In this document: positions 18,982 to 35,483 of the stretch, in pieces
Position numbering within the stretch: the first letter of the stretch is position 1
Layout: every line of letters begins with the position of its first letter
DNA from: Phycisphaerales bacterium
Lineage (GTDB): Bacteria > Planctomycetota > Phycisphaerae > Phycisphaerales > UBA1924
NCBI GenBank assembly: GCA_019744815.1
Contig: JAIEUA010000006.1
Span: 1 to 64,000, forward strand
Reading direction: 5' to 3'
Length of the DNA: 64,000 bases
Made by a program: the position numbers and the translations under genes
Notes under the pieces: model-generated
Told to the model about the DNA's origin: nothing
Seen by the model: the letters and a program-made list of their open reading frames with translations, nothing else
The model's database searches: none

Positions 18982-19149
18982 ACACGACTCAAGGCATTCG
19001 ATGGGAATCGTCTCGTGCTGCGGATGTTCGAAGCCTTCAAGAGAGGTGTTCTCGGACGCCTGGGGCTGCTGGCGGGGCCAAGGAAGGGGTGCGAGTGGCC
19101 GCGATTCGTACGCAGGAACGTGGGCCTAAGGGTTTCACTACCATCGCCC

Positions 19150-21576
19150 GTGCTCGATGATGTCCGCCGCATCTTCGCCAAGGATGGCCCGATCGCGACC
19201 GCGATCGGCGGCCACTTCGAGCCGCGGCCGCAGCAGATCGAGATGGCCCTTGCCGTCGCTCGCACAATGCAAAGCAAGTCGCACCTGCTCGCCGAAGCCG
19301 GCACGGGCGTCGGCAAGTCGTTCGCCTATCTCGTGCCCGCGATGCTTCGGTGCCTGCACGGCGAGACCGTCGTCGTCGCCACCAACACGATCTCGCTCCA
19401 AGAGCAGTTGATTCATAAGGATGTGCCGCTGCTGCGTGAGATGGTGGAAGGGATGGGAGGGGGGCAGGGGAGCAGTGGGGAAGGGGAGCAGGGGGAAAGA
19501 CAGCCAAACGTGCAGTGGGAGGGTGATCCCGACGACGAGCGCGCGATCAGCACCAAGCCCTCGGTGCGGCCGGTGCTCGTGAAAGGCCGCGGCAACTACG
19601 TCAGCATCCGGCGGCTCAAGCTCGCCAGCGAGCGGCAGGACAAGATGATGGCCGATCCCGCGGCACGCCGGTCGCTGCACGTCATCGAGGACTGGGCCCG
19701 CGAAACGCTCGATGGCACACTCAGCACGCTGCCGGCGCTCGAGCGCATGGGCGTGTGGGACAAGGTGCAATCCGACAGCGGCAACTGCATGGGCCGCAAG
19801 TGCTCGAACTATGACCGCTGCTTCTATCAAACCGCTCGCGCGAAGATGGAAGGGGCGAACCTGCTCATCACCAACCACGCGCTGTTCTTCGCGGATCTGG
19901 CGATGCGGGTGCAGGACATCGGGTTCCTGCCGCGGTACGACCATGTGATCCTCGACGAGGCTCACTGCGTGGAGGATGTGGCCAGCGAGCACTTCGGGCG
20001 GAACCTGGCCGAGGGTCGGGTGATGCACCTGCTCACGACGCTCTGCCATCCGCGCACCGGAAAGGGGTACTTGCCGCAGATCGCGCTCATCGCCGGCGAT
20101 CCGGCGGCCGTCGAGCGGGCGATGCAGCTCGCGATCATGGCTCAGAACGAGACCCGCGCGTTCTTCGAGGCCGTGCTGCGGGCGACGAGGAGTTCCGACA
20201 GCGGCTCGGGGTTCGCGGGCGCGTTCGGGAATGGGGGTGGGGCCGGCGGGCGCCTGCGCGTGCCCGGCGCGGTGGACAACACCATCACGCCGATCTTCAA
20301 GGACCTGGCGCTGCGGCTCACGACCTTGCGCGACCTCGTGAAGAACGAGCCCGACAAGTTTGAGCTGAACGCGTACGCCCAGCGGGCCCAGATGATCGCC
20401 GAGGATGCGCACGTGCTGGTGGAGCAGTCGTTGTCTGGCTGTGCGTACTGGGTCGAGACCAGCGGCGACGACGGCGCGGGTTTCCAGAAAGTCACGCTCG
20501 CTTGCGCTCCCGTCGAAGTCGCCGCGCTGCTGAAGGAACATCTCTTCAGCAAGGACCACAGCGTGGTGCTCACCAGCGCGACGCTCGCGACCAAGACGGC
20601 AGTGCCTTCACGAACCCCACGCGCAAGCGTGGGGCCACAGCCGCGTGCGAAGGCCGCTGCCTCAAACGGATCGGCCGACGGCCCGCGTTTCGTGCCCGAT
20701 GGTCAGGAAGACCGGCCGGAGGCCGGTCCCACTGGCGCTCCGGACCGGCTGGAAGCCGGTCCCACTGAGATGGGAGACCGGCTGGAAGCCGGTCCTACTG
20801 GTCGCGGCAAGGACTCCGACGCTTTCTCGCACGCGCGCGATCGTCTCGGCGCGGACGGCGCCGACACGCTGCAGGTCGGCAGCCCGTTCGACTACGCGAA
20901 TCAGGTCGAGATGATCGTGGATCTGAGTCCGCCGAGCGAGCAGGCGTTTGATCCGTTCGACTCCGGCGACACCGAAGCGCCACTCGCGCGGCGTGACTGG
21001 CGGGCGGGCAAGGCCAAGAGCCCGGTCGATGATCCGCGTCACATCGCCGAGCGGGTGGTGCATCACGTCCGCGAAACCGACGGCGGCGCGTTCGTGCTCT
21101 TCACCAGCCTTTCCACTCTTCGTCAGGTGGCGCGTCTGGTCCGCGAGCCGCTGTCGCGCCTTGGCCATCCGGTGCTCGCCCAGACCGTCGACGGCTCACG
21201 CACCGCGATCCTCGAGCAGTTCCGCCAGAACGAGCGCAGCGTGCTGCTCGGTGCGGCCAGCTTCTGGCAGGGTGTCGACGTCCGCGGCCGCGGGCTGCGG
21301 AATGTGATCATCACCAAGCTTCCATTCGATCCGCCGGACCGCCCGCTGACGCAGGCCCGGCACGAGCTCATCGCCTCCCGCGGCGGTGACTCGTTCCGAC
21401 AGGACACCATGCCTCGTGCGATCATCCGCTTCAAGCAAGGCTTCGGCCGCTTGATCCGAAGCGCGAGCGACAAGGGCCGCGTCGTGGTGCTCGATCCGCG
21501 GCTGGTCCGTTCGGGTTATGGGCGGAAATTCCTGGACGCGTTGCCCCCCGGCGTGCGGCTGCAGACGCTGGAATAG
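19150..21576 (+). CDS. dinG: DinG-type superfamily 2 DNA helicase
   Basis: 808 residues from GTG 19150, an XPD/DinG-type 5'-3' helicase. Walker A GTGVGKS at 51-57; Walker B DEAH at 269-272; C-terminal motif with SFWQGVDVRG and QGFGRLIR. In the iron-sulphur region C213-x4-C218-x5-C224 remain, but the first cysteine of the usual four is replaced by Ser (S152 in GRGNYVSIRRL). Two insertions interrupt conserved regions: residues about 103-117 (Gly/Glu, family G repeat) and about 486-552 (families H and E). The start is uncertain: the frame continues to GTG 19015, but homology begins near VLDDVRRI at 19150. Confidence 0.87.
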   Translation: MLDDVRRIFAKDGPIATAIGGHFEPRPQQIEMALAVARTMQSKSHLLAEAGTGVGKSFAYLVPAMLRCLHGETVVVATNTISLQEQLIHKDVPLLREMVEGMGGGQGSSGEGEQGERQPNVQWEGDPDDERAISTKPSVRPVLVKGRGNYVSIRRLKLASERQDKMMADPAARRSLHVIEDWARETLDGTLSTLPALERMGVWDKVQSDSGNCMGRKCSNYDRCFYQTARAKMEGANLLITNHALFFADLAMRVQDIGFLPRYDHVILDEAHCVEDVASEHFGRNLAEGRVMHLLTTLCHPRTGKGYLPQIALIAGDPAAVERAMQLAIMAQNETRAFFEAVLRATRSSDSGSGFAGAFGNGGGAGGRLRVPGAVDNTITPIFKDLALRLTTLRDLVKNEPDKFELNAYAQRAQMIAEDAHVLVEQSLSGCAYWVETSGDDGAGFQKVTLACAPVEVAALLKEHLFSKDHSVVLTSATLATKTAVPSRTPRASVGPQPRAKAAASNGSADGPRFVPDGQEDRPEAGPTGAPDRLEAGPTEMGDRLEAGPTGRGKDSDAFSHARDRLGADGADTLQVGSPFDYANQVEMIVDLSPPSEQAFDPFDSGDTEAPLARRDWRAGKAKSPVDDPRHIAERVVHHVRETDGGAFVLFTSLSTLRQVARLVREPLSRLGHPVLAQTVDGSRTAILEQFRQNERSVLLGAASFWQGVDVRGRGLRNVIITKLPFDPPDRPLTQARHELIASRGGDSFRQDTMPRAIIRFKQGFGRLIRSASDKGRVVVLDPRLVRSGYGRKFLDALPPGVRLQTLE
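19456..19500 (+). repeat. Family G array inside dinG
   Basis: GGGGCAGGGGAGCAGTGGGG units kept in frame, coding Gly/Ser/Glu/Gln at dinG residues 103-117. It is the purine-strand version of the arrays at 118-182 and 35904-36002. Confidence 0.6.
20611..20634 (+). repeat. Family H hairpin inside dinG
   Basis: CCCCACGC and GCGTGGGG pair around GCAA-type loop bases. It is kept in frame within dinG, at the start of the 486-552 insertion. Confidence 0.5.
20709..20802 (+). repeat. Three tandem family E units inside dinG
   Basis: GACCGGCCGGAGGCCGGTCC, GACCGGCTGGAAGCCGGTCC and GACCGGCTGGAAGCCGGTCC, at about 20710, 20743 and 20776, each palindromic and followed by (C/T)ACTG. They code three (D/E)R(L/P)EAGPT units. 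Copies outside genes: 34718-34741 and 35459-35483. Confidence 0.7.
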
Positions 21577-27889: not shown

Positions 27890-28237
27890 TTGGACGCACA
27901 ATCACGAGTTGGTGGTGTGGGTGGTGGTGGAGGGGTACCGGCAGCCGCCGCGAACAAGGCCCAGGCGGCCTCGGTGGTGGGACGGTACGCGGGCACGGCC
28001 GGTCCACGGCCGACGACCGGCGCCGGGGTGCAGCGGGCGGGAGATCAGGTGGATTTCTCTTCCGTCAGCCGCAGCGTCGCCCCCTTCATCGAGAAGCTCA
28101 AGAAGGGACCGCAGATCCGCGAAGCCGTGGTGGCTCAGGTTCGCAAGGAGATCGCCGAGGGTTCCTACGACACGCCTCAGAAGATGGACGAAGCCCTCGA
28201 CGGCATGATCGACGACGTTCTCGAGGACCAGCCGTAA
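27890..28237 (+). CDS. flgM: Anti-sigma-28 factor
   Basis: 115 residues. FlgM binds the flagellar sigma factor FliA and holds it inactive until the hook is complete. The C-terminal half (about 50-115) has the FlgM pattern: DFSSVSRSVAPFIEKLKKG then REAVVAQVRKEIAEGSYDT and a terminal helix. The first 45 residues are Gly/Ala-rich and disordered, as expected for FlgM. TTG 27890 is chosen because AAGGAG at 27877-27882 stands 7 nt away. No other flagellar gene is in the window, so the partner sigma factor and flagellum must lie elsewhere. It ends at a good terminator. Confidence 0.82.
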   Translation: MDAQSRVGGVGGGGGVPAAAANKAQAASVVGRYAGTAGPRPTTGAGVQRAGDQVDFSSVSRSVAPFIEKLKKGPQIREAVVAQVRKEIAEGSYDTPQKMDEALDGMIDDVLEDQP

Positions 28238-28270
28238 GCCGGTCCCGACTCAATCCATGAGAGAGAGCCG

Positions 28271-34378: not shown

Positions 34379-34737
34379 CGCGTTCGACTCCGCGCGGCTC
34401 CCGCCGCGAACGCGTTACCTTCATCCGCGGCTTCGGTTGCGTTCAGCACCACGCCTGTCGCCGCTCGCGGCGCGGGCGATGGTCGGCCGTTGGCGATGCG
34501 CGAGATTCGTTCTTTCCGGGATTGCAGCGACTCGAACAGCACTCGGTGCTTGTGGTCGGTAGGTCTGAAGTTGACGTGCGATTCGCCGAGATGTTTCCAC
34601 AAAGCCCACCCTCTTGCCTGCACGGGTTCAAGCCGCAGCGGTCGGTGTCCCACCAGCCGCGAAGATGACGCAAGGTGTAGGAGCGGCTCGTGGGGTATTT
34701 GGTGCGGGGAGGTGTGGCGACGGGCCGGAGGCCGGCC
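34379..34737. other. Gene-free region with one family E copy
   Basis: 359 bases between two minus-strand genes. The only structure seen is GACGGGCCGGAGGCCGGCC (34719-34737, family E). Open frames here have no family signal. Confidence 0.4.
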
Positions 34738-35458: not shown

Positions 35459-35483
35459 GACCGGCCGGAGGCCGGTCCCACTG
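35459..35483 (+). repeat. Family E unit
   Basis: GACCGGCCGGAGGCCGGTCC followed by CACTGG, identical in its core to the first unit inside dinG. Confidence 0.65.

Follow-up and report, generated by a model that had tools for sequence, protein, structure and literature searches.

In-frame REP elements in a linker of a planctomycete DinG-type helicase, and RAYT genes nested in rdgB and dinG

The gene of a DinG-type helicase from an uncultured Phycisphaerales bacterium contains, in frame, repeats that are dispersed over the rest of the genome. We propose that these inserts, which belong to two families here called E and H, are very probably REP elements that were mobilised by RAYT transposases and retained where they preserved the reading frame and hit a loop of the protein. 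The analysis started from a stretch of 64,000 nucleotides, hereafter the window, and was extended to the whole genome and to its relatives. What appears to be new is the repeated use of the same DinG loop by repeats and by RAYT cassettes, together with a cassette conserved in rdgB.

The open frame around dinG runs over positions 19015-21576 of the plus strand (853 aa from GTG 19015). Similarity to the DinG proteins of relatives starts near GTG 19150, in agreement with the start given by the codon model, and the residue numbers of a preliminary description of this DNA fit that start (101 for the start of the G-rich array, 489 for that of H, 521-551 for E). The protein matches the Pfam models Helicase_C_2 (5.6e-43) and DEAD (1.6e-9), and the top PDB match of its DinG model is E. 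coli DinG (6fwr, E 5.2e-39). The columns GTGVGKS and DE.H, which we take to be the Walker A motif and the DEAH box, are invariant across the DinG alignment. Altogether, the window protein is a DinG/XPD-like helicase, with a Walker A motif, a DEAH box, a C-terminal helicase domain and the DinG fold. Since it scores 498 bits with the NCBIfam YoaA model, for a cut-off of 680, and matches the NCBIfam DinG models strongly but likewise under their curated cut-offs, the gene is named DinG-type and not treated as an equivalog. E. coli DinG has four iron-sulphur cysteines, and a C.4.C.5.C cysteine triple is present in the window protein. The residue after GRGNYx (GRGNYVS at 19582-19620), presumably where E. 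coli DinG has its first Fe-S cysteine, is a serine in the window protein and in 35 of the 40 aligned DinG, and a cysteine in 5.

Repeats of three kinds lie in two linkers of this helicase (Table 1). Family E is represented by three units of 25 nt each, with a 33-nt spacing and all in frame. Its core has 10 matches in the window at up to 3 mismatches, some of which are a single palindrome counted on both strands, for 0.39 expected, and none of 100 shuffles reached 10. In the 4.11-Mb genome we found 127 matches with at most 1 mismatch, the reversed control giving 0. Other E-like palindromes of the window are located at 35459-35477 (exact), 28226-28244 and 34719-34737 (2 mismatches each). The core of the H palindrome is exact. 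As the chance test in the window alone is weak for H (6 of 100 shuffles contain one), we used the genome count instead, which gave 27 places within 1 mismatch and 0 for the control. The G-rich array of linker I, family G, is the weakest of the three and is in the window only weakly above chance: 3 matches were found for 0.79 expected, a number reached by 6 of 100 shuffles. The genome contains 205 matches against 45 in the control, and the self-match of the array peaks at period 8 (0.59, compared with 0.37-0.46 at other periods). Family G was ruled out as a hairpin repeat or REP, being a period-8 array with almost no C and no palindrome with a foot. The initial claim that three families had been absorbed in frame therefore stands for the E units and the H hairpin, while G is but a weaker G-rich array. 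The idea that dispersed repeats came to encode part of DinG is supported; the E and H repeats lie in an open frame that is coding on both flanks.

Table 1. Location of the helicase gene, its linkers and repeats, and of related features in other loci. Unprefixed positions refer to the window.
Feature	Location	Strand	Remarks
DinG-type helicase gene	19150..21576	+	808 aa from GTG 19150, start by codon model
Linker I, 49 aa	19435..19581	+	median 13 aa in homologues measured
Family G, G-rich array in linker I	19450..19502	+	period about 8 nt; self-match, genome count
Linker II, 97 aa, TSATL to GSPFDY	20587..20877	+	median 25 aa in homologues measured
Family H palindrome	20610..20640	+	core 20615-20634; encodes RTPRASVGPQ; foot GTGG on minus strand
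Family E REP unit 1	20710..20734	+	DRPEAGPT; foot GTGG on minus strand
Family E REP unit 2	20743..20767	+	DRLEAGPT; foot GTGG on minus strand
Family E REP unit 3	20776..20800	+	DRLEAGPT; foot GTAG on minus strand
In-frame REPs, other genes	L059, L063, L065, L084		threonine synthase-like, CysS, Mrp-like, serine dehydratase
In-frame REPs, other genes	L087, L090, L111, L121		RibBA, HisF, Dus, matrixin
RAYT-bearing DinG loop	L170 4298-4991; L247-L252		after motif III

Read on the minus strand, E units 1 and 2 are CAGTGGGACC, unit 3 is CAGTAGGACC and H is TGTGGCCCCACGC, that is, a foot followed by a palindrome in each case. This is the layout of GT(A/G)G REPs in the accessible text of two articles (PMC3733652, PMC6006769). 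Six Y1_Tnp (RAYT) domains were found in the window genome. The one at C1:464544-464798 is enclosed by E palindromes, which form an inverted pair complementary at 25 of 25 positions. The RAYT at C9:97302-97619 is bordered on one side by an exact H and on the other by a diverged one, with long imperfect inverted arms (56 nt, 77% complementary). As an E pair and H-type palindromes each flank a RAYT, the genome probably encodes a cognate transposase for each family. Altogether, E and H are REP elements of the GT(A/G)G type: high-copy, dispersed, footed, RAYT-flanking and mostly intergenic.

The position of the repeats relative to genes was surveyed in 80 stretches around 100 of the 127 E matches and the 27 H places, which contain 99 repeat clusters. 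With coding calls from one codon model and a single threshold, 12 of the 99 clusters, in 11 genes, are traversed by an open frame that is coding to the left and to the right of the repeat. The repeats had been described as otherwise intergenic; this agrees with the 87 clusters not called intragenic and fails for the 12 in frame. The coding fraction of the window being 0.81 by the same codon model, REPs are strongly depleted from genes. Pfam matches were obtained for 10 of the 11 repeat-bearing genes, L113 having none, and comprise DinG, Ham1/RdgB, a PALP-family enzyme that we read as threonine synthase, cysteinyl-tRNA synthetase, an Mrp-type ATPase, serine dehydratase, RibBA, HisF, dihydrouridine synthase and a matrixin. 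E keeps to one codon register, that of DRxEAGP or QWDRxxAG, in 6 of the 7 genes that bear it (binomial p 0.007 for a chance of 1/3), and all five intragenic H copies have a single orientation. The E and H consensus sequences have no stop in any of the six frames, which eases their survival in frame. The register bias of E might nevertheless reflect selection on the peptide rather than tolerance.

The sequence TSATL, with which linker II begins, is presumably helicase motif III. Linker lengths were measured on DinG genes of named genomes. Of 80 loci, 79 could be translated, the contig of L171 stopping within the gene; linker I was delimited by its anchors in 63 of the 79, linker II in 55. Between the window genome and G005, a genome of the same genus, dN amounts to 0.21 in linker I, 0.19 around H and 0.013 in the E block, for 0.004-0.025 in three core blocks. 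The inserts were initially placed inside otherwise conserved regions; the linker comparison and these dN values put them instead in hypervariable loops that separate conserved blocks. The suggestion that they form surface loops fared better, within the limits of a model. In an AlphaFold2 prediction of the window DinG (40 sequences, mean pLDDT 85, pTM 0.86), residues 108-123 and 487-554 fall under pLDDT 50 and have no secondary structure; residues 352-363 and 605-616 are of low confidence too. The high variability of the linkers, together with the low pLDDT, thus indicates that the inserts are predicted disordered loops between conserved blocks. The E block differs from that of G005 at 4 of 108 nt, with a dS of 0.105 for 0.32-0.38 in the core. 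Judging from the sequences, this low divergence could hint at constraint, but 4 differences in 108 nt are too few and we do not claim it.

A DinG match was found in 57 of the 61 genomes searched. Thirty DinG loci of relatives were taken, of which L009 is frame-broken and L011 ends before linker II, and the linkers were read where anchors were found. Linker II could be read in six of the eight genomes of the genus, G004 having no match and G003 being cut. Among the linkers read, the E block occurs in the window genome and G005 only, which goes against the refuting case of identical inserts in every DinG of distant phyla; the linkers vary among the other relatives too. G005 contains 146 E matches and the six other genomes of the genus 0, and any E match at all was seen in 6 of 41 genomes searched. 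In the DinG of G005 the E block is at the identical codon position, H is degenerate yet colinear at the matching place, and the G array, also at the matching place, is built of another 8-nt unit.

Linker I of G001, G003, G006 and G007 carries a different dispersed palindrome, CCCCMACCCCCTCCC-NNN-GGGAGGGGG, for which these genomes contain 54, 8, 32 and 62 matches, respectively (at most 2 mismatches, control 0). A degenerate trace of it, judged by eye, is present in linker I of G002, and it also occurs in the window genome (21 matches), G005 (21), G004 (32) and G002 (2). As the relatives have other sequence in these loops, the data do not support a function of the inserted peptides that is conserved between species. 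An H-like sequence in the linker of a verrucomicrobial DinG (L161) was dropped, an 18-nt core with up to 5 mismatches being too loose a match. In another planctomycete DinG (L204 1674-1754), inverted 27-nt arms surround GGGGACAGTCCCC in linker II.

We propose the following origin for the inserts. RAYT (TnpA-REP, HUH/Y1) transposases would have spread E and H to many places of the genome, and selection would have removed the copies that break genes. Some copies would have landed in dinG before the window genome and G005 diverged, and would have been retained there for two reasons, a length that did not shift the frame and a position in linker II. This exposed loop, just after motif III, could tolerate extra residues in any multiple of three bases. 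The E block of the window DinG would have been seeded by the RAYT that resides in rdgB (see below), and the G array of linker I is most likely the product of slippage of its 8-nt G-rich unit. The inserted peptides are most likely without function of their own, in a DinG protein that is presumably made and working.

One could also assume that E was inserted only once and was then duplicated in tandem, in place, to three units. Units 2 and 3 have indeed an identical palindrome and the 33-nt spacing occurs twice, but the 8-nt spacers between the units are dissimilar to each other, and direct E arrays elsewhere in the genome have other spacings (30 to 48 nt among the matches listed), so that we consider this scenario unlikely. 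One would also wonder whether the host has co-opted the inserts, the E/H peptides or the RNA/DNA hairpins regulating the helicase as a flexible tether, an mRNA structure or a binding site. Such a role would account for the almost identical E block of the window genome and G005, for the shared codon register of E and for the single orientation of intragenic H. We nevertheless find it quite improbable, for the E block is restricted to two genomes among the linkers read, the insert region is predicted to be disordered, H has decayed at the matching site in G005 and the loops of relatives contain other sequence. An artefact of assembly or frame, for which one could only invoke the draft state of both genomes (18 and about 50 contigs), is scarcely conceivable, as two genomes with 95% identical DinG have the block at the same codon and both its flanks are coding in one frame.

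The E-flanked RAYT of the window genome lies in an open frame of 466 aa, both ends of which are RdgB (L125, G000:C1:463797-465194). In the family to which the window genome belongs, 97 of 150 genomes matched the RdgB-RAYT query at threshold, and in 19 of the 150 the N part of RdgB is joined to the RAYT with no internal stop (L217-L235). The C-terminal RdgB motif follows in the same frame in 15 of these 19; a stricter count, which requires N plus C motifs, gives 12 of 19, its N pattern not recognising the form of the window genome. For G166 and G100 the RdgB-RAYT alignment extends to residues 436 and 435 of 443, respectively, and the remaining two are G115, which lies at the end of a contig, and G024, in which the frame was lost before the C part.

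The insertion site in RdgB is identical in the 16 sequences compared (16 of the 19, L233 and L234 being omitted and L230 missed). Distances between RAYTs correlate with those between RdgB parts (r 0.55, Mantel p 0.0005), as is expected if the cassette is mostly inherited with the gene. Hairpins were surveyed in the 17 frames recovered of 19, L229 and L230 yielding none. Matching hairpins stand on both sides of the nested RAYT in 10 frames, on one side in 3 and on neither in 2, while those of G115 and G024 have no clear interpretation; the stems differ between genera, on both arms. With its pair of E inverted around a RAYT and its GT(A/G)G feet, the arrangement of the window genome is similar to the REPtron, described in the accessible text of PMC6006769 and PMC3733652 as a Y1_Tnp (TnpA-REP, RAYT) gene between inverted REPs with GT(A/G)G feet. 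The REPtron of E, however, lies within the reading frame of a housekeeping gene.

A whole RAYT was also observed in DinG itself. In a Phycisphaerae MAG (L170, JAICIO010000124.1), linker II of DinG is 282 aa long and accommodates a RAYT, with one helicase domain on each side. This RAYT is flanked by inverted palindromes, whose pattern has 66 matches in the genome (at most 2 mismatches, control 0). A helicase-RAYT query gave some match in 44 of 298 genomes of the class, and a stop-free helicase-RAYT-helicase match in 6 of the 298, all of one other family and including the genome of L170; four further genomes of that family had a RAYT-only match. In all 6 RAYT-bearing DinG the HUH motif is found after SAT(L/M) and before SPF, i.e. 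in linker II, and hairpins with differing stems were found on both sides of the RAYT in the 4 examined. RAYTs nested in DinG and in RdgB share 38% identity over 108 aa.

A parallel can be drawn with the DinG of Humisphaera borealis, in which a 2025 review places a TnpA-like domain in motor domain 1, between beta6 and alpha8 (PMC11981726). In its accessible text the review suggests that such domains were incidentally acquired and does not mention REPs. This domain is presumably the same arrangement as the RAYT-bearing linker II. Our observations differ in that the RAYT recurs in several genomes of the class with hairpins at its sides, and in that the window DinG holds REPs without a transposase.

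A broader hypothesis, to which we give about even chances, is that some RAYTs of Phycisphaerae live inside genes, in frame, at a fixed site in rdgB or dinG, where they are sheltered and from where they seed REPs. The site would be rdgB in the family of the window genome and the dinG loop after motif III in another family. Nested RAYTs would have been kept over long divergence, often with REPs whose stems vary between genera. The transposase would be translated within a DNA-integrity protein and protected by the selection that acts on its host gene, and it could seed REPs such as those of the window DinG. If such gene-embedded RAYTs are real, they suggest a way in which a RAYT could persist for long, since its careless loss would break the host gene.

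Rickettsia palindromic elements (RPE) are palindromic repeats found in frame in likely functional genes. Their likeness to E and H concerns the mode of insertion only, and a direct association of the repeats with RAYT genes distinguishes the present case. RPE are mentioned in the accessible text of Di Nocera et al. (2013, PMC3733652), which reports GTAG-tagged REPs in ORFs, many of them for DNA synthesis or repair (uvrA, UvrD/Rep, Pol I, recBCD), as single, dimer or grouped inserts. The same text hypothesises mobilisation by RAYTs, includes families in Planctomycetes and does not name DinG. In-frame REPs in repair genes being known, the DinG inserts alone are not novel in kind. In comparison with these REPs, we observed two REP families and a G-rich array in one gene, relatives that carry other inserts in the same DinG loops, and an E-flanked RAYT that is itself in frame inside rdgB. 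In the open-licence PMC papers searched we found no report of a RAYT inside RdgB nor, the Humisphaera domain aside, of one DinG loop shared by unrelated repeats and whole RAYTs. Three loose observations are joined here, namely repeat-encoded peptides, REPs in repair genes and a transposase domain in one DinG, and the loops of DinG and RdgB can be regarded as natural, replicated insertion experiments. For annotation, it should be kept in mind that peptides such as DRLEAGPT and NPTRKRGA derive from repeats.

Finally, a G-quadruplex pattern is present in linker I (19450-19470 in the window) in 6 of the 7 DinG read in the genus, on the coding strand in 2 and on the opposite strand in 4. The linker I repeats differ among these DinG despite the common pattern, which could be a chance product of G-rich repeats. 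In E. coli, DinG deficiency has been reported to raise mutation of G-quadruplex repeats, according to the accessible text of PMC10530614.
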